This document shows positions 1,691-37,453 of a stretch of DNA of 64,000 nucleotides, piece by piece. The notes below the pieces were generated by a model. It was not told the origin of the DNA, ran no database searches, and was given only the letters and a program-made list of their open reading frames with translations. The first letter of the stretch is position 1. The number at the start of each line of letters is the position of its first letter. The translations under genes and the position numbers were made by a program. Origin of the DNA: Cladorhizidae sp. MBARI D1340-BT2 (Eukaryota; Porifera; Demospongiae; Poecilosclerida; Cladorhizidae); NCBI GenBank assembly GCA_028752905.1, contig JAQNBH010000010.1, positions 12,960,484 through 13,024,483 of the forward strand, in the 5' to 3' direction.

Positions 1691-4600
1691 TGCTGAGCTC
1701 ATAACCTTTGAGAGCCAACTTGATTGATGCAGGAGAACTGGAGTCATCCCTATGTACTCATAACCATTGAGAGCCATCTTGATTGATGCAGGAGAACTGG
1801 AGTCATCCCTATGTACTCATAACCATTGAGAGCCATCTTGATTGATGCAGGAGAACTGGAGTCATCCCTATGTACTCATAACCATTGAGAGCCATCTTGA
1901 TTGATGCAGGAGAACTGGAGTCATCCCTATGTACTCATAACCATTGAGAGACATCTTGATTGATGCAGGAGAACTGGAGTCATCCCTATGTGCTCATAAC
2001 CATTGAGAGCCATCTTGATTGATGCAGGAGAACTGGAGTCATCCCTATGTGCTCATAACCATTGAGAGCCATCTTGATTGATGCAGGAGAACTGGAGTCA
2101 TCCCTATGTGCTCATAACCATTGAGAGCCATCTTGATTGATGCAGGAGAACTGGAGTCATCCCTATGTGCTCATAACCATTGAGAGCCATCTTGATTGAT
2201 GCAGGAGAACTGGAGTCATCCCTATGTGCTCATAACCATTGAGAGCCATCTTGATTGATGCAGGAGAACTGGAGTCATCCCTATGTGCTCATGAGAGCCA
2301 TCTTGATTGATGCAGGAGAACTGGAGTCATCCCTATGTGCTCATAACCATTGAGAGCCTTCTTGATTGATGCAGGAGAACTGGAGTCATCCCTATGTGCT
2401 AATAACCATTGAGAGCCATCTTGATTGATGCAGGAGAACTGGAGTCATCCCTATGTGCTCATAGCCATTGAGAGCCATCTTGATTGATGCAGGAGAACTG
2501 GAGTCATCCCTATGTGCTCATAACCATTGAGAGCCATCTTGATTGATGCAGGAGAACTGGAGTCATCCCTATGTACTCATAACCATTGAGAGCCATCTTG
2601 ATTGATGCAGGAGAACTGGAGTCATCCCTATGTGCTCATAACCATTGAGAGCCTTCTTGATTGATGCAGGAGAACTCGAGTCATCCCTATGTACTCATAA
2701 CAATTGAGAGCCATCTTGATTGATGCAGGAGAACTGGAGTCATCCCTATGTGCTGAGCTCATAACCATTGAGAGCCAACTTGATTGATGCAGGAGAACTG
2801 GAATCATCCCTATGTACTCATAACCATTGAGAGCCATCTTGATTGATGCAGGTGAACTGGAGTCATCCCTATGTACTCATAACCATTGAGAGCCATCTTG
2901 ATTGAAGCAGGAGAACTGGAGTCATCCCTATGTGCTCATAACCATTGAGAGCCATCTTGATTGATTCAGGAGAACTGGAGTCATCCCTATGTGCTCATAA
3001 CCATTGAGAGCCATCTTGATTGATGCAGGAGAACTGGAGTCATCCCTATGTGCTAATAACCATTGAGAGCCATCTTGATTGATGCAGGAGAACTGGAGTC
3101 ATCCCTATGTGCTCATAACCATTGAGAGCCATCTTGATTGATGCAGGAGAACTGGAGTCATCCCTATGTGCTCATAACCATTGAGAGCCATCTTGATTGA
3201 TGCAGCAGAACTGGAGTCATCCCTATGTGCTCATAACCATTGAGAGCCATCTTGATTGATGCTGGAGAACTGGAGTCATCCCTATGTGCTCATAACCATT
3301 GAGAGCCATCTTGATTGATGCAGGAGAACTGGAGTCATCCCTATGTGCTCATAACCATTGAGAGCCATCTTGATTGATGCAGGAGGAGAACTTAAGTCAT
3401 CCCTATGTACTCATAACCATTGAGAGCCATCTTGATTGATGCTGGAGAACTGGAGTCATCGCTATGTGCTCATAACCATTGAGAGCCATCTCGATTGATG
3501 CAGGAGAACTGGAGTCATCCCTATGTACTCATAACCATTGAGAGACATCTTGATTGATGCAGGAGAACTGGAGTCATCCCTATGTGCTCATAACCATTGA
3601 GAGCCATCTTGATTGATGCAGGAGAACTGGAGTCATCCCTATGTGCTCATAACCATTGAGAGCCATCTTGATTGATGCAGGAGAACTGGAGTCATCCCTA
3701 TGTGCTCATAACCATTGAGAGCCATCTTGATTGATGCAGGAGAACTGGAGTCATCCCTATGTGCTCATAACCATTGAGAGCCATCTTGATTGATGCAGGA
3801 GAACTGGAGTCATCCCTATGTGCTCATAACCATTGAGAGCCATCTTGATTGATGCAGGAGAACTGGAGTCATCCCTATGTGCTCATAACCATTGAGAGCC
3901 ATCTTGATTGATGCAGGAGAACTGGAGTCATCCCTATGTGCTCATAACCATTGAGAGCCATCTTGATTGATGCAGGAGAACTGGAGTCATCCCTATGTGC
4001 TCATAACCATTGAGAGCCTTCTTGATTGATGCAGGAGAACTGGAGTCATCCCTATGTGCTCATAACCATTGAGAGCCATCTTGATTGATGCAGGAGAACT
4101 GGAGTCATCCCTATGTGCTCATAGCCATTGAGAGCCATCTTGATTGATGCAGGAGAACTGGAGTCATCCCTATGTGCTCGTAACCATTGAGAGCCATCTT
4201 GATTGATGCAGGAGAACTGGAGTCATCCCTATGTGCTCATAACCATTGAGAGCCTTCTTGATTGATGCAGGAGAACTCGAGTCATCCCTATGTACTCATA
4301 ACAATTGAGAGCCATCTTGATTGATGCAGGAGAACTGGAGTCATCCCTATGTGCTGAGCTCATAACCATTGAGAGACAACTTGATTGATGCAGGAGAACT
4401 GGAGTCATCCCTATGTGCTCATAACCATTGAGAGCCATCTTGATTGATGCAGGAGAACTGGAGTCATCCCTATGTGCTCATAACCATTGAGAGCCATCTT
4501 GATTGATGCAGGAGAACTGGAGTCATCCCTATGTGCTCATAACCATTGAGAGCCATCTTGATTGATGCAGGAGAACTGGAGTCATCCCTATGTGCTCATA

Positions 4601-7600
4601 ACCATTGAGAGCCATCTTGATTGATGCAGGAGAACTGGAGTCATCCCTATGTGCTCATAACCATTGAGAGCCTTCTTGATTGATGCAGGAGAACTGGAGT
4701 CATCCCTATGTGCTCATAACCATTGAGAGCCATCTTGATTGATGCAGGAGAACTGGAGTCATCCCTATGTGCTCATAGCCATTGAGAGCCATCTTGATTG
4801 ATGCAGGAGAACTGGAGTCATCCCTATGTGCTCGTAACCATTGAGAGCCATCTTGATTGATGCAGGAGAACTGGAGTCATCCCTATGTGCTCATAACCAT
4901 TGAGAGCCTTCTTGATTGATGCAGGAGAACTCGAGTCATCCCTATGTACTCATAACAATTGAGAGCCATCTTGATTGATGCAGGAGAACTGGAGTCATCC
5001 CTATGTGCTGAGCTCATAACCATTGAGAGACAACTTGATTGATGCAGGAGAACTGGAGTCATCCCTATGTGCTCATAACCATTGAGAGCCATCTTGATTG
5101 ATGCAGGAGAACTGGAGTCATCCCTATGTGCTCATAACCATTGAGAGCCATCTTGATTGATGCAGGAGAACTGGAGTCATCCCTATGTGCTCATAACCAT
5201 TGAGAGCCATCTTGATTGATGCAGGAGAACTGGAGTCATCCCTATGTGCTCATAACCATTGAGAGCCATCTTGATTGATGTAGGAGAACTGGAGTCATCC
5301 CTATGTGCTCATAACCATTGAGAGCCATCTTGATTGATGCAGGAGAACTGGAGTCATCCCTATGTGCTCATAACCATTGAGAGCCATCTTGATTGATGCA
5401 GGAGAACTGGAGTCATCCCTATGTGCTCATAACCATTGAGAGCCATCTTGATTGATGCAGGAGAACTGGAGTCATCCCTATGTGCTCATAACCATTGAGA
5501 GCCTTCTTGATTGATGCAGGAGAACTGGAGTCATCCCTATGTGCTCATAACCATTGAGAGCCATCTTGATTGATGCAGGAGAACTGGAGTCATCCCTATG
5601 TGCTCATAGCCATTGAGAGCCATCTTGATTGATGCAGGAGAACTGGAGTCATCCCTATGTGCTCATAACCATTGAGAGCCATCTTGATTGATGCAGGAGA
5701 ACTGGAGTCATCCCTATGTGCTCATAACCATTGAGAGCCATCTTGATTGATGCAGGAGAACTGGAGTCATCCCTATGTGCTCATAACCATTGAGAGCCTT
5801 CTTGATTGATGCAGGAGAACTCGAGTCATCCCTATGTACTCATAACAATTGAGAGCCATCTTGATTGATGCAGGAGAACTGGAGTCATCCCTATGTGCTG
5901 AGCTCATAACCTTTGAGAGCCAACTTGATTGATGCAGGAGAACTGGAGTCATCCCTATGTACTCATAACCATTGAGAGCCATCTTGATTGATGCAGGAGA
6001 ACTGGAGTCATCCCTATGTGCTCATAACCATTGAGAGCCTTCTTGATTGATGCAGGAGAACTCGAGTCATCCCTATGTACTCATAACAATTGAGAGCCAT
6101 CTTGATTGATGCAGGAGAACTGGAGTCATCCCTATGTGCTGAGCTCATAACCTTTGAGAGCCAACTTGATTGATGCAGGAGAACTGGAGTCATCCCTATG
6201 TACTCATAACCATTGAGAGCCATCTTGATTGATGCAGGAGAACTGGAGTCATCCCTATGTACTCATAACCATTGAGAGCCATCTTGATTGATGCAGGAGA
6301 ACTGGAGTCATCCCTATGTACTCATAACCATTGAGAGCCATCTTGATTGATGCAGGAGAACTGGAGTCATCCCTATGTACTCATAACCATTGAGAGACAT
6401 CTTGATTGATGCAGGAGAACTGGAGTCATCCCTATGTGCTCATAACCATTGAGAGCCATCTTGATTGATGCAGGAGAACTGGAGTCATCCCTATGTGCTC
6501 ATAACCATTGAGAGCCATCTTGATTGATGCAGGAGAACTGGAGTCATCCCTATGTGCTGAGCTCATAACCATTGAGAGCCAACTTGATTGATGCAGGAGA
6601 ACTGGAATCATCCCTATGTACTCATAACCATTGAGAGCCATCTTGATTGATGCAGGAGAACTGGAGTCATCCCTATGTACTCATAACCATTGAGAGCCAT
6701 CTTGATTGAAGCAGGAGAACTGGAGTCATCCCTATGTGCTCATAACCATTGAGAGCCATCTTGATTGATTCAGGAGAACTGGAGTCATTCCTATGTGCTC
6801 ATAACCATTGAGAGCCATCTTGATTGATGCAGGAGAACTGGAGTCATCCCTATGTGCTAATAACCATTGAGAGCCATCTTGATTGATGCAGGAGAACTGG
6901 AGTCATCCCTATGTGCTCATAACCATTGAGAGCCATCTTGATTGATGCAGGAGAACTGGAGTCATCCCTATGTGCTCATAACCATTGAGAGCCATCTTGA
7001 TTGATGCAGCAGAACTGGAGTCATCCCTATGTGCTCATAACCATTGAGAGCCATCTTGATTGATGCTGGAGAACTGGAGTCATCCCTATGTGCTCATAAC
7101 CATTGAGAGCCATCTTGATTGATGCAGGAGAACTGGAGTCATCCCTATGTGCTCATAACCATTGAGAGCCATCTTGATTGATGCAGGAGGAGAACTTGAG
7201 TCATCCCTATGTACTCATAACCATTGAGAGCCATCTTGATTGATGCTGGAGAACTGGAGTCATCGCTATGTGCTCATAACCATTGAGAGCCATCTCGATT
7301 GATGCAGGAGAACTGGAGTCATCCCTATGTACTCATAACCATTGAGAGACATCTTGATTGATGCAGGAGAACTGGAGTCATCCCTATGTGCTCATAACCA
7401 TTGAGAGCCATCTTGATTGATGCAGGAGAACTGGAGTCATCCCTATGTGCTCATAACCATTGAGAGCCATCTTGATTGATGCAGGAGAACTGGAGTCATC
7501 CCTATGTGCTCATAACCATTGAGAGCCATCTTGATTGATGCAGGAGAACTGGAGTCATCCCTATGTGCTCATAACCATTGAGAGCCATCTTGATTGATGC

Positions 7601-10491
7601 AGGAGAACTGGAGTCATCCCTATGTGCTCATAACCATTGAGAGCCATCTTGATTGATGCAGGAGAACTGGAGTCATCCCTATGTGCTCATAACCATTGAG
7701 AGCCATCTTGATTGATGCAGGAGAACTGGAGTCATCCCTATGTGCTCATAACCATTGAGAGCCATCTTGATTGATGCAGGAGAACTGGAGTCATCCCTAT
7801 GTGCTCATAACCATTGAGAGCCTTCTTGATTGATGCAGGAGAACTGGAGTCATCCCTATGTGCTCATAACCATTGAGAGCCATCTTGATTGATGCAGGAG
7901 AACTGGAGTCATCCCTATGTGCTCATAGCCATTGAGAGCCATCTTGATTGATGCAGGAGAACTGGAGTCATCCCTATGTGCTCGTAACCATTGAGAGCCA
8001 TCTTGATTGATGCAGGAGAACTGGAGTCATCCCTATGTGCTCATAACCATTGAGAGCCTTCTTGATTGATGCAGGAGAACTCGAGTCATCCCTATGTACT
8101 CATAACAATTGAGAGCCATCTTGATTGATGCAGGAGAACTGGAGTCATCCCTATGTGCTGAGCTCATAACCATTGAGAGACAACTTGATTGATGCAGGAG
8201 AACTGGAGTCATCCCTATGTGCTCATAACCATTGAGAGCCATCTTGATTGATGCAGGAGAACTGGAGTCATCCCTATGTGCTCATAACCATTGAGAGCCA
8301 TCTTGATTGATGCAGGAGAACTGGAGTCATCCCTATGTGCTCATAAGCATTGAGAGCCATCTTGATTGATGCAGGAGAACTGGAGTCATCCCTATGTGCT
8401 CATAACCATTGAGAGCCATCTTGATTGATGCAGGAGAACTGGAGTCATCCCTATGTGCTCATAACCATTGAGAGCCTTCTTGATTGATGCAGGAGAACTG
8501 GAGTCATCCCTATGTGCTCATAACCATTGAGAGCCATCTTGATTGATGCAGGAGAACTGGAGTCATCCCTATGTGCTCATAGCCATTGAGAGCCATCTTG
8601 ATTGATGCAGGAGAACTGGAGTCATCCCTATGTGCTCGTAACCATTGAGAGCCATCTTGATTGATGCAGGAGAACTGGAGTCATCCCTATGTGCTCATAA
8701 CCATTGAGAGCCTTCTTGATTGATGCAGGAGAACTCGAGTCATCCCTATGTACTCATAACAATTGAGAGCCATCTTGATTGATGCAGGAGAACTGGAGTC
8801 ATCCCTATGTGCTGAGCTCATAACCATTGAGAGACAACTTGATTGATGCAGGAGAACTGGAGTCATCCCTATGTGCTCATAACCATTGAGAGCCATCTTG
8901 ATTGATGCAGGAGAACTGGAGTCATCCCTATGTGCTCATAACCATTGAGAGCCATCTTGATTGATGCAGGAGAACTGGAGTCATCCCTATGTGCTCATAA
9001 CCATTGAGAGCCATCTTGATTGATGCAGGAGAACTGGAGTCATCCCTATGTGCTCATAACCATTGAGAGCCATCTTGATTGATGTAGGAGAACTGGAGTC
9101 ATCCCTATGTGCTCATAACCATTGAGAGCCATCTTGATTGATGCAGGAGAACTGGAGTCATCCCTATGTGCTCATAACCATTGAGAGCCATCTTGATTGA
9201 TGCAGGAGAACTGGAGTCATCCCTATGTGCTCATAACCATTGAGAGCCATCTTGATTGATGCAGGAGAACTGGAGTCATCCCTATGTGCTCATAACCATT
9301 GAGAGCCTTCTTGATTGATGCAGGAGAACTGGAGTCATCCCTATGTGCTCATAACCATTGAGAGCCATCTTGATTGATGCAGGAGAACTGGAGTCATCCC
9401 TATGTGCTCATAGCCATTGAGAGCCATCTTGATTGATGCAGGAGAACTGGAGTCATCCCTATGTGCTCATACCCATTGAGAGCCATCTTGATTGATGCAG
9501 GAGAACTGGAGTCATCCCTATGTGCTCATAACCATTGAGAGCCATCTTGATTGATGCAGGAGAACTGGAGTCATCCCTATGTGCTCATAACCATTGAGAG
9601 CCTTCTTGATTGATGCAGGAGAACTCGAGTCATCCCTATGTACTCATAACAATTGAGAGCCATCTTGATTGATGCAGGAGAACTGGAGTCATCCCTATGT
9701 GCTGAGCTCATAACCTTTGAGAGCCAACTTGATTGATGCAGGAGAACTGGAGTCATCCCTATGTACTCATAACCATTGAGAGCCATCTTGATTGATGCAG
9801 GAGAACTGGAGTCATCCCTATGTGCTCATAACCATTGAGAGCCTTCTTGATTGATGCAGGAGAACTCGAGTCATCCCTATGTACTCATAACAATTGAGAG
9901 CCATCTTGATTGATGCAGGAGAACTGGAGTCATCCCTATGTGCTGAGCTCATAACCTTTGAGAGCCAACTTGATTGATGTAGGAGAACTGGAGTCATCCC
10001 TATGTACTCATAACCATTGAGAGCCATCTTGATTGATGCAGGAGAACTGGAGTCATCCCTATGTGCTCATAACCATTGAGAGCCATCTTGATTGATGCAG
10101 GAGAACTGGAGTCATCCCTATGTGCTCATAACCATTGAGAGCCTTCTTGATTGATGCAGGAGAACTCGAGTCATCCCTATGTACTCATAACAATTGAGAG
10201 CCATCTTGATTGATGCAGGAGAACTGGAGTCATCCCTATGTGCTGAGCTCATAACCTTTGAGAGCCAACTTGATTGATGCAGGAGAACTGGAGTCATCCC
10301 TATGTACTCATAACCATTGAGAGCCATCTTGATTGATGCAGGAGAACTGGAGTCATCCCTATGTGCTCATAACCATTGAGAGCCTTCTTGATTGATGCAG
10401 GAGAACTCGAGTCATCCCTATGTACTCATAACAATTGAGAGCCATCTTGATTGATGCAGGAGAACTGGAGTCATCCCTATGTGCTGAGCTC
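1691..10491. other. Thirteen hAT-excision-like 5-bp scars in satellite monomers
   Basis: The decamer TGCTGAGCTC replaces TGCTC at 1691, 2751, 4352, 5006, 5896, 6137, 6555, 8156, 8810, 9700, 9941, 10241 and 10482 (first bases). The position in the monomer (51-55) is exactly where the four transposons are inserted. Two tandem TGCTC copies would read TGCTCTGCTC; the scar differs only at the two central bases, CT to GA, each replaced by its complement. hAT transposases cut through hairpins on the flanking DNA, and rejoining commonly leaves duplicated targets with complemented junction bases. Most of these monomers also share the flanking variants of the transposon sites (CCTTCTTG, ACTCGAG and ACAATTG to the left; CCAACTTG or ACAACTTG to the right). 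The sequence is seen directly; excision as the cause is inference. Confidence 0.8.
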
Positions 10492-10776
10492 ATAACCTTT
10501 GAGAGCCAACTTGATTGATGCAGGAGAACTGGAGTCATCCCTATGTACTCATAACCATTGAGAGCCATCTTGATTGATGCAGGAGAACTGGAGTCATCCC
10601 TATGTACTCATAACCATTGAGAGCCATCTTGATTGATGCAGGAGAACTGGAGTCATCCCTATGTACTCATAACCATTGAGAGCCATCTTGATTGATGCAG
10701 GAGAACTGGAGTCATCCCTATGTACTCATAACCATTGAGAGACATCTTGATTGATGCAGGAGAACTGGAGTCATCC
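2628..10776. repeat. 3804-bp higher-order duplication (two copies)
   Basis: Rare variants recur at an offset of exactly 3804 bp: the footprints at 2751, 4352, 5006 and 5896 match 6555, 8156, 8810 and 9700. GAATCATCC, GATTGAAGCAGG, GATTGATTCAGG, GCAGCAGAAC, TCATCGC and CATCTCG also appear in the same order in both copies. The first copy spans about 2.63-6.43 kb and the second about 6.43-10.78 kb. The second is about 541 bp longer, through an extra round of the 241/300-bp subrepeats at 9577-10568. The period decomposes exactly as 64 monomers (3776) plus five 5-bp scars (25) plus one 3-bp GGA insertion. Inside it are smaller repeats of 654 bp (11 monomers plus 5) and 241 bp (4 monomers plus 5). 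The edges are approximate because they fall in near-identical monomers. Confidence 0.92.
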
Positions 10777-11410
10777 CTATGTGCTCATAACCATTGAGAG
10801 CCATCTTGATTGATGCAGGAGAACTGGAGTCATCCCTATGTGCTCATAACCATTGAGAGCCATCTTGATTGATGCAGGAGAACTGGAGTCATCCCTATGT
10901 GTCATAACCATTGAGAGCCATCTTGATTGATGCAGGAGAACTGGAGTCATCCCTATGTACTCATAACAATTGAGAGCCATCTTGATTGATGCAGGAGAAC
11001 TGGAGTCATCCCTATGTGCTCATAACCATTGAGAGCCATCTTGATTGATGCAGGAGAACTGGAGTCATCCCTATGTGCTCATAACCATTGAGAGCCATCT
11101 TGATTGATGCAGGAGAACTGGAGTCATCCCTATGTGCTCATAACCATTGAGAGCCATCTTGATTGATGCAGGAGAACTGGAGTCATCCCTATGTGCTCAT
11201 AATCATTGAGAGCCATCTTGATTGATGCAGGAGAACTGGAGTCATCCCTATGTGCTCATAACCATTGAGAGCCATCTTGATTGATGCAGGAGAACTGGAG
11301 TCATCCCTATGTGCTCATAAGCCATCTTGATTGATGCAGGAAAACTGGAGTCATCCCTATGTGCTCATAACCATTGAGAGCCATCTTGATTGATGCAGGA
11401 GAACTGGAGT

Positions 11411-12950
11411 CATCCCTGTGTGCTCATAACCATTGAGAGCCATCTTGATTGATGCAGGAGAACTGGAGTCATCCCTGTGTGCTCATAACCATTGAGAGCC
11501 ATCTTGATTGATGCAGGAGAACTGGAGTCATCCCTATGTGCTCATAACCATTGAGAGCCATCTTGATTGATGCAGGAGAACTGGAGTCATCCCTATGTGC
11601 TCATAACCATTGAGAGCCATCTTGATTGATGCAGGAGAACTGGAGTCATCCCTATGTGCTCATAACCATTGAGAGCCATCTTGATTGATGCAGGAGAACT
11701 GGAGTCATCCCTATGTGCTCATAACCATTGAGAGCCATCTTGATTGATGCAGGAGAACTGGAGTCATCCCTATGTACTCATAACCATTGAGAGCCATCTT
11801 GATTGATTCAGGAGAACTAGAGTCATCCCTATGTGCTCATAACCATTGAGAGCCATCTTGATTGATGCAGGAGAACTGGAGTCATCCCTATGTGCTCATA
11901 ACCATTGAGAGCCATCTTGATTGATGCAGGAGAACTGGAGTCATCCCTATGTGCTCATAACCATTGAGAGCCATCTTTATTGATGCAGGAGGAGAACTGG
12001 AGTCATCCCTATGTACTCATAACCATTGAGAGCCATCTTGATTGATGCAGGTGAACTGGAGTCATCCCTATGTGCTCATAACCATTGAGAGCCATCTTGA
12101 TTGATGCAGGAGAACTGGAGTCATCCCTATGTGCTCATAACCATTGAGAGCCATCTTGATTGATGCAGGAGAACTGGAGTCATCCCTGTGTGCTCATAAC
12201 CATTGAGAGCCATCTTGATTGATGCAGGAGAACTGGAGTCATCCCTATGTGCTCATAACCATTGAGAGCCATCTTGATTGATGCAGGAGAACTGGAGTCA
12301 TCCCTATGTGCTCATAACCATTGAGAGCCATCTTGATTGATGCAGGAGAACTGGAGTCATCCCTATGTGCTCATAACCATTGAGAGCCATCTTGATTGAT
12401 GCAGGAGAACTGGAGTCATCCCTATGTGCTCATAACCATTGAGAGCCATCTTGATTGATGCAGGAGAACTGGAGTCATCCCTATGTGCTCATAACCATTG
12501 AGAGCCATCTTGATTGATGCAGGAGAACTGGAGTCATCCCTATGTACTCATAACCATTGAGAGCCATCTTGATTGATTCAGGAGAACTAGAGTCATCCCT
12601 ATGTGCTCATAACCATTGAGAGCCATCTTGATTGATGCAGGAGAACTGGAGTCATCCCTATGTGCTCATAACCATTGAGAGCCATCTTGATTGATGCAGG
12701 AGAACTGGAGTCATCCCTATGTGCTCATAACCATTGAGAGCCATCTTTATTGATGCAGGAGGAGAACTGGAGTCATCCCTATGTACTCATAACCATTGAG
12801 AGCCATCTTGATTGATGCAGGTGAACTGGAGTCATCCCTATGTGCTCATAACCATTGAGAGCCATCTTGATTGATGCAGGAGAACTGGAGTCATCCCTAT
12901 GTGCTCATAACCATTGAGAGCCATCTTGATTGATGCAGGAGGAGAACTGG
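11411..12950. repeat. 770-bp tandem duplication of satellite
   Basis: Variants CATCCCTGTG (11411, 12181), GATTGATTCAGG (11801, 12571), CTTTATTG with the GGA insertion, and CAGGTGAACTGG (GTGAACTGG at 12051, 12821) recur at an offset of exactly 770 bp, which is 13 monomers (767) plus the 3-bp insertion. The two copies are adjacent, about 11411-12180 and 12181-12950. The edges are approximate. Confidence 0.85.
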
Positions 12951-13319
12951 AGTCATTCCTATGTACTCATAACCATTGAGAGCCATCTTGATTGATGCTG
13001 GAGAACTGGAGTCATCTCTATGTGCTCATAACCATTGAGAGCCATCTTGATTGATGCAGGAGAACTGGAGTCATCCCTATGTGCTCATAACCATTGAGAG
13101 CCATCTTGATTGATGCAGGAGAACTGGAGTCATCCCTATGTGCTCATAACCATTGAGAGCCATCTTGATTGATGCAGGAGAACTGGAGTCATCCCTATGT
13201 GCTCATAACCATTGAGAGCCATCTTGATTGATGCAGGAGAACTGGAGTCATCCCTATGTGCTCATAACCATTGAGAGCCATCTTGATTGATACAGGAGAA
13301 CTGGAGTCATCCCTATGTG

Positions 13320-14900: not shown

Positions 14901-16103
14901 AGGAGAACTGGAGTCATCCCTATGTGCTCATAACCATTGAGAGCCATCTTGATTGATGCAGGAGAACTGGAGTCATCCCTATGTGTCATAACCATTGAGA
15001 GCCATCTTGATTGATGCAGGAGAACTGGAGTCATCCCTATGTACTCATAACAATTGAGAGCCATCTTGATTGATGCAGGAGAACTGGAGTCATCCCTATG
15101 TGCTCATAACCATTGAGAGCCATCTTGATTGATGCAGGAGAACTGGAGTCATCCCTATGTGCTCATAACCATTGAGAGCCATCTTGATTGATGCAGGAGA
15201 ACTGGAGTCATCCCTATGTGCTCATAACCATTGAAAGCCATCTTGATTGATGCAGGAGAACTGGAGTCATCCCTATGTGCTCATAACCATTGAGAGCCAT
15301 CTTGATTGATGCAGGAGAACTGGAGTCATCCCTATGTGCTCATAACAATTGAGAGCCATCTTGATTGATGCAGGAGAACTGGAGTCATCCCTATGTGCTC
15401 ATAACCATTGAGAGCCAACTTGATTGATGCAGGAGAACTGGAGTCATCCCTATGTACTCATAACCATTGAGAGCCATCTTGATTGATGCAGGAGAACTGG
15501 AGTCATCCCTATGTGCTCATAACCATTGAGAGCCATCTTGATTGATGCAGGAGAACTGGAGTCATCCCTATGTACTCATAACCATTGAGAGCCATCTTGA
15601 TTGATGCAGGAGAACTGGAGTCATACCTATGTGCTCATAACCATTGAGAGCCATCTTGATTGATGCAGGAGAACTGGAGTCATCCCTATGTGCTCATAAC
15701 CATTGAGAGCCATCTTGATTGCTGCAGTTGAACTGGAGTCATCCCTATGTGCTCATAACCATTGAGAGCCATCTTGATTGATGCAGGAGAACTGGAGTCA
15801 TCCCTATGTGCTCATAACCATTGACTGCCATCTTCAATGATGCAGGAGAACTGGAGTCATCCCTATGTGCTCATAACCATTGAGAGCCATCTTGATTGAT
15901 GCAGGAGAACTGGAGTCATCCCTATGTGCTCATAACCATTGAGAGCCATCTTGATTGATGCAGGAGAACTGGAGTCATCCCTATGTGCTCATAACCATTG
16001 AGAGCCATCTTGATTGATGCAGGAGAACTGGAGTCATCCCTATGTGCTCATAACCATTGAGAGCCATCTTGATTGATGCAGGAGAACTGGAGTCATCCCT
16101 ATG

Positions 16104-22100: not shown

Positions 22101-25100
22101 CATAACCATTGAGAGCCATCTTGATTGATTCAGGTGAACTGGAGTCATCCCTATGTGCTCATAACCATTGAGAGCCTTCTTGATTGATGCAGGAGAACTG
22201 GAGTCATCCCTATGTGCTCATAACCATTGAGAGCCATCTTGATTGATGCAGGAGAACTGGAGTCATCCCTATGTGCTCATAGCCATTGAGAGCCATCTTG
22301 ATTGATGCAGGAGAACTGGAGTCATCCCTATGTGCTCATAACCATTGAGAGCCATCTTGATTGATGCAGGAGAACTGGAGTCATCCCTATGTGCTCATAA
22401 CCATTGAGAGTCATCTTAATTGATGCAGGAGAACTGGAGTCATCCCTATGTGCTCATAACCATTGAGAGTCATCTTGATTGATGCAGGAGGAGAACTGGA
22501 GTCATCCCTATGTGCTCATAACCATTGAGAGCCATCTTGATTGATGCAGGAGAACTAGAGTCATCCCTATGTGCTTATAACCATTGAGAGCCATCTTGAT
22601 TGATGCAGGAGAACTGGAGTCATCCCTATGTGCTCATAACCATTGAGAGCCATCTTGATTGATGCAGGAGGAGAACTGGAGTCATCCCTATGTGCTCATA
22701 ACCATTGAGAGCCATCTTGATTGATGCAGGAGAACTGGAGTCATCCCTATGTGCTGATAACCATTGAGAGCCATCTTGATTGATGCAGGAGAACTGGAGT
22801 CATCCCTATGTACTCATAACCATTGAGAGCCATCTTGATTGTTGCAGGAGAACTGGAGTCATCCCTATGTGCTCATAACCATTGAGAGTCATCTTGATTG
22901 ATGCAGGAGAACTGGAGTCATCCCTATGTGCTCATAACCATTGAGAGCCATCTTGATTGATGCAGGAGAACTGGAGTCATCCCTATGTGCTCATAACCAT
23001 TGAGAGCCATCTTGATTGATGCAGGAGAACTGGAGTCATCCCTATGTGCTCATAACCATGGAGAGCCATCTTGATTGATGCAGGAGAACTGGAGTCATCC
23101 CTATGTGCTCATAACCATTGAGAGCCATCTTGATTGATGCAGGAGAACTGGAGTCATCCCTATGTGCTCATAAGCCATCTTGATTGATGCAGGAGAACTG
23201 GAGTCATCCCTATGTGCTCATAACCATTGAGAGCCATCTTGATTGATGCAGGAGAACTGGAGTCATCCCTATGTGCTCATAACCATTGAGAGCCATCTTG
23301 ATTGATGCAGGAGAACTGGAGTCATCCCTATGTGCTCATAACCATTGAGAGCCATCTTGATTGATGCAGGAGAACTGGAGTCATCCCTATGTGCTCATAA
23401 CCATTGAGAGCCATCTTGATTGATGCAGGAGAACAGGAGTCATCACTATGTGCTCATAACCATTGAGAGCCATCTTGATTGATGCAGGAGAACTGGAGTC
23501 ATCCCTATGTGCTCATAACCATTGAGAGCCATCTTGATTGATGCAGGAGAACTGGAGTCATCCCTATGTGCTCATAACCATTGAGAGCCATCTTGATTGA
23601 TGCAGGAGAACTGGAGTCATCCCTATGTGCTCATAACCATTGAGAGCCATCTTGATTGATGCAGGAGAACTGGAGTCATCCCTATGTGCTCATAACCATT
23701 GAGAGCCATCTTTATTGATGCAGGAGGAGAACTGGAGTCATCCCTATGTACTCATAACCATTGAGAGCCATCTTGATTGATGCTGGAGAACTAGAGTCAT
23801 CCCTATGTGCTCATAACCATTGAGAGCCATCTTGATTGATGCAGGAGAACTGGAGTCATCCCTATGTGTGCTCATAACCATTGAGAGCCATCTTGATTGA
23901 TGCAGGAGGAGAACGGGAGTCATTCCTATGTACTCATAACCATTGAGAGCCATCTTGATTGATACTGGAGAACTGGAGTCATCCCTATGTGCTCATAACC
24001 ATTGAGAGCCATCGTGTTTGATACAGGAGAACTGGAGTCATCCCTATGTGCTCATAACCATTGAGAGCCATCTTGATTGATGCAGGAGAACTGGAGTCAT
24101 CCCTATGTACTCATAACAATTGAGAGCCATCTTGATTGATGCAGGAGAACTGGAGTCATCCCTATGTGCTCATAACCATTGAGAGCCATCTTGATTGATG
24201 CAGGAGAACTGGAGTCATCCCTATGTGCTCATAACCATTGAGAGCCATCTTGATTGATGCAGGAGAACTGGAGTCATCCCTATGTGCTCATAACCATTGA
24301 AAGCCATCTTGATTGATGCAGGAGAACTGGAGTCATCCCTATGTGCTCATAACCATTGAGAGCCATCTTGATTGATGCAGGAGAACTGGAGTCATCCCTA
24401 TGTGCTCATAACAATTGAGAGCCATCTTGATTGATGCAGGAGAACTGGAGTCATCCCTATGTGCTCATAACCATTGAGAGCCAACTTGATTGATGCAGGA
24501 GAACTGGAGTCATCCCTATGTACTCATAACCATTGAGAGCCATCTTGATTGATGCAGGAGAACTGGAGTCATCCCTATGTACTCATAACCATTGAGAGCC
24601 ATCTTGATTGATGCAGGAGAACTGGAGTCATCCCTATGTGCTCATAACCATTGAGAGCCATCTTGATTGATGCAGGAGAACTGGAGTCATCCCTATGTAC
24701 TCATAACCATTGAGAGCCATCTTGATTGATGCAGGAGAACTGGAGTCATACCTATGTGCTCATAACCATTGAGAGCCATCTTGATTGATGCAGGAGAACT
24801 GGAGTCATCCCTATGTGCTCATAACCATTGAGAGCCATCTTGATTGCTGCAGTTGAACTGGAGTCATCCCTATGTGCTCATAACCATTGAGAGCCATCTT
24901 GATTGATGCAGGAGAACTGGAGTCATCCCTATGTGCTCATAACCATTGACTGCCATCTTCAATGATGCAGGAGAACTGGAGTCATCCCTATGTGCTCATA
25001 ACCATTGAGAGCCATCTTGATTGATGCAGGAGAACTGGAGTCATCCCTATGTGCTCATAACCATTGAGAGCCATCTTGATTGATGCAGGAGAACTGGAGT

Positions 25101-27315
25101 CATCCCTATGTGCTCATAACCATTGAGAGCCATCTTGATTGATGCAGGAGAACTGGAGTCATCCCTATGTGCTCATAACCATTGAGAGCCATCTTGATTG
25201 ATGCAGGAGAACTGGAGTCATCCCTATGTGCTGAGCTCATAACCATTGAGAGCCAACTTGATTGATGCAGGAGAACTGGAGTCATCCCTATGTACTCATA
25301 ACCATTGAGAGCCATCTTGATTGATGCAGGAGAACTGGAGTCATCCCTATGTACTCATAACCATTGAGAGCCATCTTGATTGATGCAGGAGAACTGGAGT
25401 CATCCCTATGTGCTCATAACCATTGAGAGCCATCTTGATTGATGCAGGAGAACTGGAGTCATACCTATGTGCTCATAACCATTGAGAGCCATCTTGATTG
25501 ATGAAGGAGAACTGGAGTCATCCCTATGTGCTCATAACCATTGAGAGCCATCTTGATTGATGCAGGAGAACTGGAGTCATCCCTATGTGCTCATAACCAT
25601 TGAGAGCCATCTTGATTGATGCAGGAGAACTGGAGTCATCCCTATGTACTCATAACCATTGAGAGCCATCTTGATTGATGCAGGAGAACTGGAGTATCCC
25701 TATGTTCTCATAACCATTGAGAGCCATCTTGATTGATGCAGGAGAACTGGAGTCATCCCTATGTGCTCATAACCATTGAGAGCCATCTTGATTGATGCAG
25801 GAGAACTGGAGTCATCCCTATGTGCTCATAACCATTGAGAGCCATCTTGATTGATGCAGGAGAACTGGAGTCATCGCTATGTACTCATAACCATTGAGAG
25901 CCTACTTGATTGATGCAGGAGAACTGGAGTCATCCCTATGTGCTAATAACCATTGAGAGCCATCTTGATTGATGCAGGAGAACTGGAGTCATCCCTATGT
26001 GCTCATAGCCATTGAGAGCCATCTTGATTGATGCAGGAGAACTGGAGTCATCCCTATGTGCTCATAACCATTGAGAGCCATCTTGATTGATGCAGCAGAA
26101 CTGGAGTCATCCCTATGTGCTCATAACCATTGAGAGCCATCTTTATTGATGCAGGAGGAGAACTGGAGTCATCCCTATGTACTCATAACCATTGAGAGCC
26201 ATCTTGATTGATGCTGGAGAACTAGAGTCATCCCTATGTGCTCATAACCATTGAGAGCCATCTTGATTGATGCAGGAGAACTGGAGTCATCCCTATGTGT
26301 GCTCATAACCATTGAGAGCCATCTTGATTGATGCAGGAGGAGAACTGGAGTCATTCCTATGTACTCATAACCATTGAGAGCCATCTTGATTGATACTGGA
26401 GAACTGGAGTCATCCCTATGTGCTCATAACCATTGAGAGCCATCGTGATTGATACAGGAGAACTGGAGTCATCCCTATGTGCTCATAACCATTGAGAGCC
26501 ATCTTGATTGATGCAGGAGAACTGGAGTCATCCCTATGTGCTCATAACCATTGAGAGCCATCTTGATTGATGCAGGAGAACTGGAGTCATCCCTATGTGC
26601 TCATAACCATTGAGAGCCATCTTGATTGATGCAGGAGAACTGGAGTCATCCCTATGTGCTCATAACCATTGAGAGCCATCTTGATTGATGCAGGAGAACT
26701 GGAGTCATCCCTATGTACTCATAACCATTGAGAGACATCTTGATTGATGCAGGAGAACTGGAGTCATCCCTATGTGCTCATAACCATTGAGAGCCATCTT
26801 GATTGATGCAGGAGAACTGGAGTCATCCCTATGTGCTCATAACCATTGAGAGCCATCTTGATTGATGCAGGAGAACTGGAGTCATCCCTATGTGCTCATA
26901 ACCATTGAGAGCCATCTTGATTGATGCAGGAGAACTGGAGTCATCCCTATGTGCTCATAACCATTGAGAGCCATCTTGATTGATGCAGGAGAACTGGAGT
27001 CATCCCTATGTACTCATAACCATTGAGAGCCATCTTGATTGATGCAGGAGAACTGGAGTCATCCCTATGTGCTCATAACCATTGAGAGCCATCTTGATTG
27101 ATGCAGGAGAACTGGAGTCATCCCTATGTGCTCATAACCATTGAGAGCCATCTTGATTGATGCAGGAGAACTGGAGTCATCCCTATGTGCTCATAACCAT
27201 TGAGAGCCATCTTGATTGATGCAGGAGAACTGGAGTCATCCCTATGTGCTCATAACCATTGAGAGCCATCTTGATTGATGCAGGAGAACTGGAGTCATCC
27301 CTATGTGCTGAGCTC
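16104..27315. other. Six further hAT-excision-like scars
   Basis: TGCTGAGCTC begins at 16104, 18181, 19189, 21266, 25229 and 27306, always at monomer positions 51-55 and always followed by a CCAACTTG monomer. Here the left neighbour is usually a standard ACCATTG monomer instead of the ACAATTG variant, so the left flank has been partly homogenised. All six lie in the 3085-bp higher-order repeat and were carried by its duplication, so they represent two ancestral scars at most. Confidence 0.78.
22395..24050. repeat. Satellite segment duplicated from 13.3-14.9 kb (copy B)
   Basis: This carries the same ordered series of rare variants as copy A (TCATCTTAATTG near 22411, ACCATGG at 23055, CATCGTGTTTG near 24011). 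It differs by one extra 50-bp monomer at 23171 and by a few substitutions, such as TCATCAC near 23446. It lies between two copies of the 3085-bp repeat. Confidence 0.88.
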
Positions 27316-30300
27316 ATAACCATTGAGAGCCAACTTGATTGATGCAGGAGAACTGGAGTCATCCCTATGTACTCATAACCATTGAGAGCCATCTTGATTG
27401 ATGCAGGAGAACTGGAGTCATCCCTATGTACTCATAACCATTGAGAGCCATCTTGATTGATGCAGGAGAACTGGAGTCATCCCTATGTGCTCATAACCAT
27501 TGAGAGCCATCTTGATTGATGCAGGAGAACTGGAGTCATCCCTATGTGCTCATAACCATTGAGAGCCATCTTGATTGATGTAGGAGAACTGGAGTCATCC
27601 CTATGTGCTCATAACCATTGAGAGCCATCTTGATTGATGCAGGAGAACTGGAGTCATCCCTATGTGCTCATAACCATTGAGAGCCATCTTGATTGATGCA
27701 GGAGAACTGGAGTCATCCCTATGTACTCATAACCATTGAGAGCCATCTTGATTGATGCAGGAGAACTGGAGTCATCCCTATGTACTCATAACCATTGAGA
27801 GACATCTTGATTGATGCAGGAGAACTGGAGTCATCCCTATGTGCTCATAACCATTGAGAGCCATCTTGATTGATGCAGGAGAACTGGAGTCATCCCTATG
27901 TGCTCATAACCATTGAGAGCCATCTTGATTGATGCAGGAGAACTGGAGTCATCCCTATGTGCTCATAACCATTGAGAGCCATCTTGATTGATGCAGGAGA
28001 ACTGGAGTCATCCCTATGTGCTCATAACCATTGAGAGCCATCTTGATTGATGCAGGAGAACTGGAGTCATCCCTATGTACTCATAACCATTGAGAGCCAT
28101 CTTGATTGATGCAGGAGAACTGGAGTCATCCCTATGTGCTCATAACCATTGAGAGCCATCTTGATTGATGCAGGAGAACTGGAGTCATCCCTATGTGCTC
28201 ATAACCATTGAGAGCCATCTTGATTGATGCAGGAGAACTGGAGTCATCCCTATGTGCTCATAACCATTGAGAGCCATCTTGATTGATTCAGGTGAACTGG
28301 AGTCATCCCTATGTGCTCATAACCATTGAGAGCCTTCTTGATTGATGCAGGAGAACTGGAGTCATCCCTATGTGCTCATAACCATTGAGAGCCATCTTGA
28401 TTGATGCAGGAGAACTGGAGTCATCCCTATGTGCTCATAGCCATTGAGAGCCATCTTGATTGATGCAGGAGAACTGGAGTCATCCCTATGTGCTCATAAC
28501 CATTGAGAGCCATCTTGATTGATGCAGGAGAACTGGAGTCATCCCTATGTGCTCATAACCATTGAGAGCCTTCTTGATTGATGCAGGAGAACTCGAGTCA
28601 TCCCTATGTACTCATAACAATTGAGAGCCATCTTGATTGATGCAGGAGAACTGGAGTCATCCCTATGTGCTCATAACCATTGAGAGCCAACTTGATTGAT
28701 GCAGGAGAACTGGAGTCATCCCTATGTACTCATAACCATTGAGAGCCATCTTGATTGATGCAGGAGAACTGGAGTCATCCCTATGTGCTCATAACCATTG
28801 AGAGCCATCTTGATTGATGCAGGAGAACTGGAGTCATTCCTATGTGCTCATAACCATTGAGAGCCATCTTGATTGATGCAGGAGAACTGGAGTCATCCCT
28901 ATGTCCTCATAACCATTGAGAGCCATCTTGATTGATGCAGGAGAACTGGAGTCATCCCTATGTGCTCATAACCATTGAGAGCCATCTTGATTGATGCAGG
29001 AGAACTGGAGTCATCCCTATGTGCTCATAACCATTGAGAGCCATCTTGATTGATGCAGGAGAACTGGAGTCATCCCTATGTGCTCATAACCATTGAGAGC
29101 CATCTTGATTGATGCAGGAGAACTGGAGTCATCCCTATGTACTCATAACCATTGAGAGCCATCTTGATTGATGCAGGAGGACTGGAGTCATCCCTATGTG
29201 CTCATAACCATTGAGAGCCATCTTGATTGATGCAGGAGAACTAGAGTCATCCCTATGTGCTCATAACCATTGAGAGCCATCTTGATTGATGCAGGAGAAC
29301 TGGAGTCATCGCTATGTACTCATAACCATTGAGAGCCATCTTGATTGATGCAGGAGAACTGGAGTCATCCCTATGTGCTAATAACCATTGAGAGCCATCT
29401 TGATTGATGCAGGAGAACTGGAGTCATCCCTATGTGCTAATAACCATTGAGAGCCATCTTGATTGATGCAGGAGAACTGGAGTCATCCCTATGTGCTCAT
29501 AGCCATTGAGAGCCATCTTGATTGATGCAGGAGAACTACAGTCATCCCTATGTGCTCATAACCATTGAGAGCCATCTTGATTGATGCAGGAGAACTGGAG
29601 TCATCCCTATGTGCTCATAACCATTGAGAGCCTTCTTGATTGATGCAGGAGAACTCGAGTCATCCCTATGTACTCATAACAATTGAGAGCCATCTTGATT
29701 GATGCAGGAGAACTGGAGTCATCCCTATGTGCTCATAACCATTGAGAGCCAACTTGATTGATTCAGGAGAACTGGAGTCATCCCTATGTACTCATAACCA
29801 TTGAGAGCCATCTTGATTGATGCAGGAGAACTGGAGTCATCCCTATGTACTCATAACCATTGAGAGCCATCTTGATTGATGCAGGAGAACTGGAGTCATC
29901 CCTATGTGCTCATAACCATTGAGAGCCTTCTTGATTGATGCAGGAGAACTGGAGTCATCCCTATGTACTCATAACCATTGAGAGCCATCTTGATTGATGC
30001 AGGAGAACTGGAGTCATCCCTATGTGCTCATAACCATTAAGAGCCATCTTGATTGATGCAGGAGAACTGGAGTCATCTCTATGTGCTCATAACCATTGAG
30101 AGCCATCTTGATTGATGCAGGAGAACTGGAGTCATCCCTATGTACTCATAACCATAGAGAGCCATCTTGATTGATGCAGGAGAACTGGAGTCATCCCTAT
30201 GTGCTCATAACCATTGAGAGCAATCTTGATTGATGCAGGAGAACTGGAGTCATCCTATGTGCTCATAACCATTGAGAGCCATCTTGATTGATGCAGGAGA

Positions 30301-33300
30301 ACTGGAGTCATCCCTATGTACTCATAACCATTGAGAGCCATCTTGATTGATGCAGGAGAACTGGAGTCATCCCTATGTGCTCATAACCATTGAGAGCCAT
30401 CTTTATTGATGCAGGAGAACTGGAGTCATCGCTATGTACTCATAACCATTGAGAGCCATCTTGATTGATGCAGGAGAACTGGAGTCATCCCTATGTGCTC
30501 ATAACCATTGAGAGCCTTCTTGATTGATGCAGGAGAACTCGAGTCATCCCTATGTTCTCATAACAATTGAGAGCCATCTTGATTGATGCAGGAGAACTGG
30601 AGTCATCCCTATGTCCTCATAACCATTGAGAGCCATCTTGATTGATGCAGGAGAACTGGAGTCATCCCTATGTGCTCATAACCATTGAGAGCCATCTTGA
30701 TTGATGCAGGAGGAGAACTGGAGTCATCCCTATGTGCTCATAATCATTGAGAGCCATCTTGATTGATGCAGGAGAACTGGAGTCATCCCTATGTGCTGAT
30801 AACCATTGAGAGCCATCTTGATTGATGCAGGAGAACTGGAGTCATCCCTATGTACTCATAACCATTGAGAGCCATCTTGATTGTTGCAGGAGAACTGGAG
30901 TCATCCCTATGTGCTCATAACCATTGAGAGTCATCTTGATTGATGCAGGAGAACTGGAGTCATCCCTATGTGCTCATAACCATTGAGAGCCATCTTGATT
31001 GATGCAGGAGAACTGGAGTCATCCCTATGTGCTCATAACCATTGAGAGCCATCTTGATTGATGCAGGAGAACTGGAGTCATCCCTATGTGCTCATAACCA
31101 TGGAGAGCCATCTTGATTGATGCAGGAGAACTGGAGTCATCCCTATGTGCTCATAACCATTGAGAGCCATCTTGATTGATGCAGGAGAACTGGAGTCATC
31201 CCTATGTGCTCATAAGCCATCTTGATTGATGCAGGAGAACTGGAGTCATCCCTATGTGCTCATAACCATTGAGAGCCATCTTGATTGATGCAGGAGAACT
31301 GGAGTCATCCCTATGTGCTCATAACCATTGAGAGCCATCTTGATTGATGCAGGAGAACTGGAGTCATCCCTATGTGCTCATAACCATTGAGAGCCATCTT
31401 GATTGATGCAGGAGAACTGGAGTCATACCTATGTGCTCATAACCATTGAGAGCCATCTTGATTGATGCAGGAGAACTGGAGTCATCCCTATGTGCTCATA
31501 ACCATTGAGAGCCATCTTGATTGATGCAGGAGAACAGGAGTCATCCCTATGTGCTCATAACCATTGAGAGCCATCTTGATTGATGCAGGAGAACTGGAGT
31601 CATCCCTATGTGCTCATAACCATTGAGAGCCATCTTGATTGATGCAGGAGAACTGGAGTCATCCCTATGTGCTCATAACCATTGAGAGCCATCTTGATTG
31701 ATGCAGGAGAACTGGAGTCATCCCTATGTGCTCATAACCATTGAGAGCCATATTGATTGATGCAGGAGAACTGGAGTCATCCCTATGTGCTCATAACCAT
31801 TGAGAGCCATCTTTATTGATGCAGGAGGAGAACTGGAGTCATCCCTATGTACTCATAACCATTGAGAGCCATCTTGATTGATGCTGGAGAACTAGAGTTA
31901 TCCCTATGTGCTCATAACCATTGAGAGCCATCTTGATTGATGCAGGAGAACTGGAGTCATCCCTATGTGTTCTCATAACCATTGAGAGCCATCGTGATTG
32001 ATACAGGAGAACTGGAGTCATCCCTATGTGCTCATAACCATTGAGAGCCATCTTGATTGATGCAGGAGAACTGGAGTCATCCCTATGTGCTCATAACCAT
32101 TGAGAGCCATCTTGATTGATGCAGGAGAACTGGAGTCATCCCTATGTGCTCATAACCATTGAGAGCCATCTTGATTGATGCAGGAGAACTGGAGTCATCC
32201 CTATGTGCTCATAACCATTGAGAGCCATCTTGATTGATGCAGGAGAACTGGAGTCATCCCTATGTACTCATAACCATTGAGAGCCATCTTGATTGATGCA
32301 GGAGAACTGGAGTCATCCCTATGTGCTCATAACCATTGAGAGACATCTTGATTGATGCAGGAGAACTGGAGTCATCCCTATGTGCTCATAACCATTGAGA
32401 GCCATCTTGATTGATGCAGGAGAACTGGAGTCATCCCTATGTGCTCATAACCATTGAGAGCCATCTTGATTGATGCAGGAGAACTGGAGTCATCCCTATG
32501 TGCTCATAACCATTGAGAGCCATCTTGATTGATGCAGGAGAACTGGAGTCATCCCTATGTGCTCATAACCATTGAGAGCCATCTTGATTGATGAAGGAGA
32601 ACTGGAGTCATCCCTATGTACTCATAACCATTGAGAGCCATCTTGATTGATGCAGGAGAACTGGAGTCATCCCTATGTGCTCATAACCATTGAGAGCCAT
32701 CTTGATTGATGCAGGAGAACTGGAGTCATCCCTATGTGCTCATAACCATTGAGAGCCATCTTGATTGATGCAGGAGAACTGGAGTCATCCCTATGTACTC
32801 ATAACCATTGAGAGCCATCTTGATTGATGCAGGAGAACTGGAGTCATCCCTATGTGCTCATAACCATTGAGAGCCATCTTGATTGATGCAGGAGAACTGG
32901 AGTCATCCCTATGTGCTCATAACCATTGAGAGCCATCTTGATTGATGCAGGAGAACTGGAGTCATCCCTATGTACTCATAACCATTGAGAGCCATCTTGA
33001 TTGATGCAGGAGAACTGGAGTCATCCCTATGTGCTCATAACCATTGAGAGCCTTCTTTATTGATGCAGGAGAACTCGAGTCATCCCTATGTACTCATAAC
33101 AATTGAGAGCCATCTTGATTGATGCAGGAGAACTGGAGTCATCCCTATGTGCTCATAACCATTGAGAGCCAACTTGATTGATGCAGGAGAACTGGGGTCA
33201 TCCCTATGTACTCATAACCATTGAGAGCCATCTTGATTGATGCAGGAGAACTGGAGTCATCCCTATGTACTCATAACCATTGAGAGCCATCTTGATTGAT

Positions 33301-35500
33301 GCAGGAGAACTGGAGTCATCCCTATGTGCTCATAACCATTGAGAGCCATCTTGATTGATGCAGGAGAACTGGAGTCATCCCTATGTACTCATAACCATTG
33401 AGAGCCATCTTGATTGATGCAGGAGAACTGGAGTCATCCCTATGTGCTCATAACCATTGAGAGCCTTCTTGATTGATGCAGGAGAACTGGAGTCATCCCT
33501 ATGTGCTCATAACCATTGAGAGCCATCTTGATTGATGCAGGAGAACTGGAGTCATCCCTATGTGCTCATAACCATTGAGAGCCATCTTGATTGATGCAGG
33601 AGAACTGGAGTCATCCCTATGTGCTAATAACCATTGAGAGCCATCTTGATTGATGCAGGAGAACTGGAGTCATCCCTATGTGCTCATAGCCATTGAGAGC
33701 CATCTTGATTGATGCAGGAGAACTGGAGTCATCCCTATGTGCTCATAACCATTGAGAGCCATCTTGATTGATGCAGGAGAATTGGAGTCATCCCTATGTG
33801 CTCATAACCATTGAGAGCCTTCTTGATTGATGCAGGAGAACTCGAGTCATCCCTATGTACTCATAACAATTGAGAGCCATCTTGATTGATGCAGGAGAAC
33901 TGGAGTCATCCCTATGTGCTCATAACCATTGAAAGCCAACTTGATTGATGCAGGAGAACTGGAGTCATCCCTATGTACTCATAACCATTGAGAGCCATCT
34001 TGATTGATGCAGGAGAACTGGAGTCATCCCTATGTACTCATAACCATTGAGTGCCATCTTGATTGATGCAGGAGAACTGGAGTCATCCCTATGTGCTCAT
34101 AACCATTGAGAGCCATCTTGATTGATGCAGGAGAACTGGAGTCATCCCTATGTACTCATAACCATTGAGAGCCATCTTGATTGATGCAGGAGAACTGGAG
34201 TCATCCCTATGTGCTCATAACCATTAAGAGCCATCTTGATTGATGCAGGAGAACTGGAGTCATCTCTATGTGCTCATAACCATTGAGAGCCATCTTGATT
34301 GATGCAGGAGAACTGGAGTCATCCCTATGTACTCATAACCATAGAGAGCCATCTTGATTGATGCAGGAGAACTGGAGTCATCCCTATGTGCTCATAACCA
34401 TTGAGAGCCATCTTGATTGATGCAGGAGAACTGGAGTCATCCCTATGTGCTCATAACCATTGAGAGCCATCTTGATTGATGCAGGAGAACTGGAGTCATC
34501 CCTATGTACTCATAACCATTGAGAGCCATCTTGATTGATGCAGGAGAACTGGAGTCATCCCTATGTGCTCATAACCATTGAGAGCCATCTTGATTGATGC
34601 AGGAGAACTGGAGTCATCGCTATGTACTCATAACCATTGAGAGCCATCTTGATTGATGCAGGAGAACTGGAGTCATCCCTATGTGCTCATAACCATTGAG
34701 AGCCTTCTTGATTGATGCAGGAGAACTCGAGTCATCCCTATGTACTCATAACCATTGAGAGCTATCTTGATTGATGCAGGAGAACTGGAGTCGTCCCTAT
34801 GTGCTCATAACCATTGAGAGCCATCTTGATTGATGCAGGAGAACTGGAGTCATCCCTATGTGCTAATAACCATTGAGAGCCATCTTGATTGATGCAGGAG
34901 AACTGGAGTCATCCCTATGTGCTCATAGCCATTGAGAGCCATCTTGATTGATGCAGGAGAACTGGAGTCTTCGCTATGTACTCATAACAATTGAGAGCCA
35001 TCTTGATTAATACAGGAGAACTGGAGTCATCTAATAACCATTGAGAGCCATCTTGATTGATGCAGGAGAACTGGAGTCATCCCTATGTGCTCATAGCCAT
35101 TGAGAGCCATCTTGATTGATGCAGGAGAACTGGAGTCATCCCTATGTGCTCATAACCATTGAGAGCCTTCTTGATTGATGCAGGAGAACTGGAGTCATCC
35201 CTATGTGCTCATAACCATTGAGAGCCATCTTGATTGATGCAGGAGAACTGGAGTCATCCCTATGTGCTCATAGCCATTGAGAGCCATCTTGATTGATGCA
35301 GGAGAACTGGAGTCATCCCTATGTGCTCATAACCATTGAGAGCCATCTTGATTGATGCAGGAGAACTGGAGTCATCCCTATGTGCTCATAACCATTGAGA
35401 GCCTTCTTGATTGATGCAGGAGAACTCGAGTCATCCCTATGTACTCATAACAATTGAGAGCCATCTTGATTGATGCAGGAGAACTGGAGTCATCCCTATG

Positions 35501-35510
35501 TGCTGAGCTC
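35501..35510. other. Last hAT-excision-like scar, 1.9 kb before TE1
   Basis: TGCTGAGCTC sits in the full marker context: CCTTCTTG and ACTCGAG, then ACAATTG on the left, and CCAACTTG with GAATCATCC on the right. The right flank matches the scars at 2751 and 6555, so this monomer group is related to the 3804-bp repeat 25-30 kb away. No scar of this type occurs between 37.4 and 64 kb. Confidence 0.8.
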
Positions 35511-37414: not shown

Positions 37415-37453
37415 GGGGGGGGGGGGTTGAGGGGGTTGCAACCCCCCCCCCCC
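37415..37453. repeat. Subterminal G/C tracts with 16-bp palindrome
   Basis: Directly inside the left TIR is a G12 run (37415-37426), then the perfect palindrome GGGGGTTGCAACCCCC (37431-37446), running into C13. The same palindrome is at 42105-42120, 46841-46856 and 52318-52333. Tract lengths vary by copy: G12/C13, G9/C14, G11/C13 and G9/C10 for TE1-TE4. It could form a hairpin or be a transposase-binding subterminal motif (inference). Homopolymer lengths may be affected by sequencing error. Confidence 0.8.

Follow-up and report, generated by a model that had tools for sequence, protein, structure and literature searches.

Excision of the hAT transposons Ac/Ds and Tam3 leaves footprints in which the target-site duplication (TSD) is retained and the junction bases are complemented, which the published descriptions explain by hairpins formed on the flanking DNA (PMC5873905, PMC1978519). 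With Ac/Ds, the complement of the transposon-adjacent base is described as the centre of both the deletions and the palindromic insertions seen in Candida, yeast and plants (PMC5873905). Hairpins on the flanking DNA are likewise reported for the hAT elements Hermes and Kat1, for Kat1 mostly 1 nt from the terminal inverted repeat (TIR) (PMC4763223). TcBuster, an animal hAT assayed in human cells, is described as producing short footprint insertions complementary to the flanks, attributed to hairpins and end joining (PMC3499496). As far as these reports describe them, the Ac/Ds and Tam3 footprints were obtained in transformed yeast or plants or at marked loci, and those of TcBuster, a different element, in a plasmid assay. 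Here we describe what is very probably a natural hAT footprint, copied within satellite DNA as a heritable array variant, in a 64,000-nt stretch ('the window') of the sponge Cladorhizidae sp. MBARI D1340-BT2 (contig JAQNBH010000010.1, 12,960,484 to 13,024,483).

Four DNA transposons, hAT elements that we call TE1 to TE4, interrupt the 59-bp satellite array that makes up the window. The left part of the array, as delimited by Tandem Repeats Finder (TRF), is as follows:

1 to 37400, + strand: 59-bp satellite array, left part, about 632 units, holding all 20 scars (period 59, 631.9 copies, 95% matches)

An earlier note on this DNA had claimed that twenty monomers are scarred at the insertion site of the transposon. 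We indeed found 20 exact copies of the decamer TGCTGAGCTC, hereafter the scar, all on the + strand (first at 1691-1700, last at 35501-35510) and with an identical junction. Chance would account for 0.56 copies, as judged by 100 shuffles, none of which reached 20. All 20 are located inside the array at 1-37400, at the monomer junction where the four hAT elements sit between TGCTC. The junction given in the earlier note is thus correct, and the numbering differs by phase convention only, since TGCTC starts at monomer position 52, not 51, in the TRF-unit phase. The decamer that precise excision would leave, TGCTCTGCTC, has no occurrence in the window, and among sequences of the form TGC, 1 to 8 bases, CTCATA, the scar alone is present (20/20). 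The copies are listed here; C3A is a variant of the flanking haplotype considered below.

1691 to 1700, + strand: scar, exact match
2751 to 2760, + strand: scar, exact match
4352 to 4361, + strand: scar, exact match
5006 to 5015, + strand: scar, exact match
5896 to 5905, + strand: scar, exact match
6137 to 6146, + strand: scar, exact match
6555 to 6564, + strand: scar, exact match, left flank without C3A
8156 to 8165, + strand: scar, exact match
8810 to 8819, + strand: scar, exact match
9700 to 9709, + strand: scar, exact match
9941 to 9950, + strand: scar, exact match
10241 to 10250, + strand: scar, exact match
10482 to 10491, + strand: scar, exact match
16104 to 16113, + strand: scar, exact match, left flank without C3A
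18181 to 18190, + strand: scar, exact match, left flank without C3A
19189 to 19198, + strand: scar, exact match, left flank without C3A
21266 to 21275, + strand: scar, exact match, left flank without C3A
25229 to 25238, + strand: scar, exact match, left flank without C3A
27306 to 27315, + strand: scar, exact match, left flank without C3A
35501 to 35510, + strand: scar, exact match

At this junction the transposons are flanked by TGCTC on both sides in all four cases, as expected from the TGCTC duplication that had been proposed for them:

37401 to 40480, + strand: TE1, hAT element, 3080 bp, TSD TGCTC at 37396-37400 and 40481-40485
42078 to 45155, + strand: TE2, hAT element, 3078 bp, TSD TGCTC
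46812 to 50575, + strand: TE3, hAT element, 3764 bp, with a nested TTAA-flanked insert, TSD TGCTC
52291 to 55363, + strand: TE4, hAT element, 3073 bp, TSD TGCTC

Each of the four starts with CAGGGGCGGATC and ends with GATCCGCCCCTG. The TIR, measured on TE1, is 16 bp long and perfect (CAGGGGCGGATCTAGG), and all four agree in their outermost 12 bases at either end.

The scar corresponds to the product of precise excision with both junction bases complemented, C to G on the left and T to A on the right. This is the pattern expected of hairpin-mediated hAT excision, and the model yields TGCTGAGCTC with both transposon-adjacent bases complemented: hairpins modelled one base into each flank, and both opened one base past the tip, gave exactly this decamer, which was obtained with 2 of the 25 hairpin-opening combinations tried. 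A random 5-bp insertion is unlikely to match site, length and both complemented bases, as the earlier note had argued; only 4 of the 60,416 position-by-5-mer combinations in the monomer gave the scar sequence. The footprint is not identical to those of atypical Ds in Arabidopsis: in our reading of Table 1 of PMC1978519, the two commonest have one side complemented and the other shortened by a base, whereas here both sides are complemented and no base is lost. The scar suggests that an element with a 5-bp TSD leaves via the same flank hairpins as hATs with an 8-bp TSD.

To compare the flanks, elements were removed together with one TSD, scars were reduced to TGCTC, and the array was then split into 863 monomers, 862 of which were used for the haplotype counts, the last one having no successor. 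The variant T15A was found in the next monomer downstream of 20/20 scars and 4/4 TEs, versus 18 of 838 other monomers. Similarly, C3A in the site monomer accompanied 13/20 scars and 3/4 TEs (17/838 others), and G37C in the preceding monomer 12/20 scars and 3/4 TEs (11/838 others). As a control we used 31 groups, namely 29 array variants with 5 to 60 copies, the scars and the TEs, leaving out T15A itself and variants outside this range of copy number. Scars and TEs alone were always followed by T15A; among the best 10 of the 31 groups, C3A came next (25/33, a group that includes 13 scars and 3 TEs), then C46G (3/23), the remainder being at zero. Fisher values on these counts treat copies as independent, so that they overstate the case and are not to be taken as probabilities. 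In addition, nine monomers carry C3A and downstream T15A around an intact TGCTC. These empty sites, defined by C3A, T15A in the next monomer and neither scar nor TE (T15A monomers without C3A, e.g. 41502, 46295 and 51715, are not among them), are:

15396 to 15400, + strand: empty site TGCTC, C3A and T15A haplotype
18422 to 18426, + strand: empty site TGCTC, C3A and T15A haplotype
24462 to 24466, + strand: empty site TGCTC, C3A and T15A haplotype
28668 to 28672, + strand: empty site TGCTC, C3A and T15A haplotype
29730 to 29734, + strand: empty site TGCTC, C3A and T15A haplotype
33150 to 33154, + strand: empty site TGCTC, C3A and T15A haplotype
33917 to 33921, + strand: empty site TGCTC, C3A and T15A haplotype
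61618 to 61622, + strand: empty site TGCTC, C3A and T15A haplotype
63387 to 63391, + strand: empty site TGCTC, C3A and T15A haplotype

Since T15A and C3A are shared by scars and TEs, and nine sites with this combination are intact, the same satellite haplotype is present in three states, empty, filled and scarred. The nine empty sites may never have held an element, or homologous repair may have restored them. The kinship of scarred and TE-bearing monomers, which the earlier note had proposed to examine, is thus supported as far as the shared flank haplotype goes; that the scarred monomers are sisters of TE1 to TE4 is not demonstrable, the nine empty sites having the same haplotype.

We consider it very probable that a hAT element inserted at TGCTC on the marked haplotype, that at least one germline copy underwent hairpin-type excision, and that the scar was then multiplied by array duplication. 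In the order of events that we propose, a hAT element with a 5-bp TSD would have inserted at TGCTC of a haplotype that has C3A upstream and T15A downstream as its markers. Transposase would have nicked one nucleotide into each flank, the flank ends becoming hairpins and the element being released. Each hairpin would then have been opened at its tip and the ends joined, converting TGCTC-TGCTC to TGCTGAGCTC. Finally, segmental array duplication would have brought the scarred monomer to 20 copies and, independently, an occupied unit to 4.

An ordinary mutation without any link to a transposon, i.e. a fold-back or template-switch insertion making the palindrome TGAGCTCA, can also be envisaged. The insert can be read in four ways, one of which, TGAGC, is GCTCA of the site in reverse complement; the 8-bp palindrome created by the scar is absent from the consensus monomer, and a break with a 2-nt overlap and three palindromic bases could conceivably produce the scar. 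Such a mutation would nevertheless have had to hit, by coincidence, both this junction within 59 bp and the marked haplotype, to which 18 or 9 of 838 monomers belong; even granting the letters, we estimate the odds at about 1 in 1000. Moreover, the other insertions in the array are of four types, AGG (30 copies), TG (5), TT (1) and TA (1), and the recurring ones, AGG and TG, are simple local duplications. We therefore regard an ordinary mutation as highly improbable.

The spread of the scar can be followed in duplicated blocks of the array, detected by diagonal scoring of monomer variants:

2764 to 6150 with 6568 to 9954: duplicated block pair
15463 to 17894 with 18548 to 20979: duplicated block pair
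18253 to 22046 with 24293 to 28086: duplicated block pair
15463 to 18130 with 24588 to 27255: duplicated block pair
5668 to 6445 with 10013 to 10790: example of a smaller duplicated block pair

By our count 16 of the 20 scars are inside such blocks, in agreement with the earlier proposal that the scar was multiplied by satellite duplication. Those outside are at 1691, 2751, 6555 and 35501, and one block pair has the scars at 2751 and 6555 at its edge. The left end of this pair (2764-6150 and 6568-9954) is located at, or within about 50 bp of, the scar.

Trees of the flanks were built for 33 sites (20 scars, 4 TEs and 9 empty sites). The three states interleave, with 7 state changes on both the right-flank and the both-flank tree, a number as low as which was reached in 0/200 shuffles, keeping in mind that a low count can come from near-copies alone. 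On the right flank, distances were 0.0174 between scars and TEs, 0.0198 between scars and empty sites and 0.0135 between TEs and empty sites. Several results weigh against the proposed scheme. On the right-flank tree the TE label changes 4 times and shows no clustering (500/500 shuffles as low; on the both-flank tree, 57/500 were as low). The scars form no single clade: in the approximately unbiased (AU) test a single clade is not rejected on the right flank (p 0.147) and weakly rejected on both flanks (p 0.026), a test that is itself weak because array recombination breaks the tree model. On the left flank, scars are no closer to TEs (0.0224) than to empty sites (0.0200). Over 12 monomers on each side, the scar-TE distance (0.0263) is hardly below that of random monomers to TEs (0.0296), and the kinship is therefore visible only near the site. 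As the scars are copies of one or a few events, the agreement in haplotype amounts, for each event, to a coincidence of 1-2% (9 or 18 of 838), and with nine empty sites on the same haplotype the scars need not have originated from these very TE copies.

A single excision followed by copying remains the simplest reading, with repeated excision as its alternative. The same footprint could have arisen within the proposed scheme from two or more excisions independent of each other, of which at least one would have vacated an occupied unit with the C3A flank and one a plain-flank unit (like TE3), each being subsequently amplified. Both left-flank types do occur in both states (C3A with 13 scars and 3 TEs, plain with 7 scars and TE3), TE3 is identical over the stretch k..k+4 (295 columns) to four scars, and the weak rejection of one scar clade on both flanks points the same way. 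Recurrence is plausible as such, one Ds footprint being reported in 35 of 128 Candida revertants (PMC5873905). On the other hand, no second excision is needed for a plain flank if one monomer was deleted, or an unequal exchange took place, to the left of the site. This is exemplified by the scar at 6555: the block that follows it (6568-9954) repeats the one following the scar at 2751 (2764-6150), while their left flanks differ. Furthermore, the plain flank consists mostly of consensus monomers, so that sharing it means little, and the right flank alone is compatible with one clade. On balance, we see two or more excisions as a possibility to be kept in mind, if a rather unlikely one. Were different occupied units to have been excised repeatedly, each leaving the double-complement scar, hairpin opening would be near-deterministic and would feed a scarred subfamily spread by array turnover; this we consider unlikely.

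The four elements differ by 13 single-base substitutions and 2 single-base gaps in all, over about 3 kb, with length differences of the G/C runs and the nested insert of TE3 set apart. As judged by lists of open reading frames (ORFs), the same breaks are present in all four copies, with one extra stop in TE1 and TE2, and successive elements are spaced by 27, 28 and 29 monomers. The shared breaks, the same junction and this spacing suggest that TE1 to TE4 derive from one insertion multiplied by array duplication. Since all four copies are broken, the transposase for the excision would have come from elsewhere, such as a helper copy, or from an intact ancestor.

This low divergence bears on a further explanation, in which the scar goes back to an older insertion of another element with a 5-bp duplication, and TE1 to TE4 arrived later at the same spot. 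The scars extend across 34 kb and their right flanks have diverged (A4T, C12A, G40A), which sits well with a scar older than elements that differ so little. However, the same nucleotide position of the same haplotype would have to be hit twice, which nothing in the window demands; we give this explanation very little credence.

The assignment to hAT was further examined on TE4, whose translation is interrupted by stops and frame shifts. Its joined read-through matched the hAT dimerisation region PF05699 (40.6 bits, cut-off 21.4) and DUF4371 (47.6 bits, cut-off 32.1). No Pfam match was obtained with three separate TE4 ORF pieces, none of which reaches the C-terminal end, and a phmmer search of the C-terminal 297 residues against the PDB gave no match at E 1. 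In the translation, CFSH and some acidic residues can be picked out by eye as candidates for the CXXH motif and the DDE catalytic residues. The TSD is 5 bp in 4/4 elements, not the 8 bp that are usual, though not required, in hAT. Groups with 5-, 6- and 7-bp TSDs are recognised as hAT5, hAT6 and hAT7 (PMC12730594), the hAT5 group being credited there to Kapitonov and Jurka 2007. With its 5-bp TSD and hAT domain the element resembles hAT5 as described in that source, and it fits this group on the basis of TSD length.

Each of these processes is known singly, and their combination is unusual: a probable hAT footprint has been kept and multiplied as a satellite subtype beside empty and occupied forms. 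Transposons have been described as a source of tandem repeats (PMC9659126), and mobile DNA yields satellite novelty in both cases; as far as that source describes, it is transposon sequence that is amplified, whereas here it would be the repair scar of an absent transposon. We found no case in the literature of a satellite variant made from an excision footprint, as judged by the titles and abstract openings of the papers listed. If our reading is correct, one DNA stretch is a natural record of the empty site, insertion and excision of a cut-and-paste transposon, and a repair footprint can turn into a heritable satellite subtype. The scar would also be a distinctive marker for tracing array turnover, more so if a single origin proves true.

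Some additional observations were made on the elements and on the array. Just inside the left TIR a G run faces a C run (37414-37455 in TE1), with a length that varies among TE1 to TE4. The left flank of TE3 (46756) resembles a one-monomer deletion beside the element. The nested insert of TE3, about 685 bp at 49743-50431, has TTAA at both ends and the termini GGGGGGAATAA/TTATTCCCCCC; it is absent from TE1, TE2 and TE4, and we take it to resemble a piggyBac- or Kolobok-type non-autonomous element. When the TIR pattern was searched in viral contigs, two loci were retrieved, but apart from a single 13-bp match their similarity to the element ends was limited to 16-17 bp, which we judged to be chance in a collection of that size. 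The satellite pattern had no match in prokaryote genomes. Finally, the AGG insertion defines a variant of its own at monomer position 27, a simple local duplication present in 30 monomers of 1-37400 and the later array segments.

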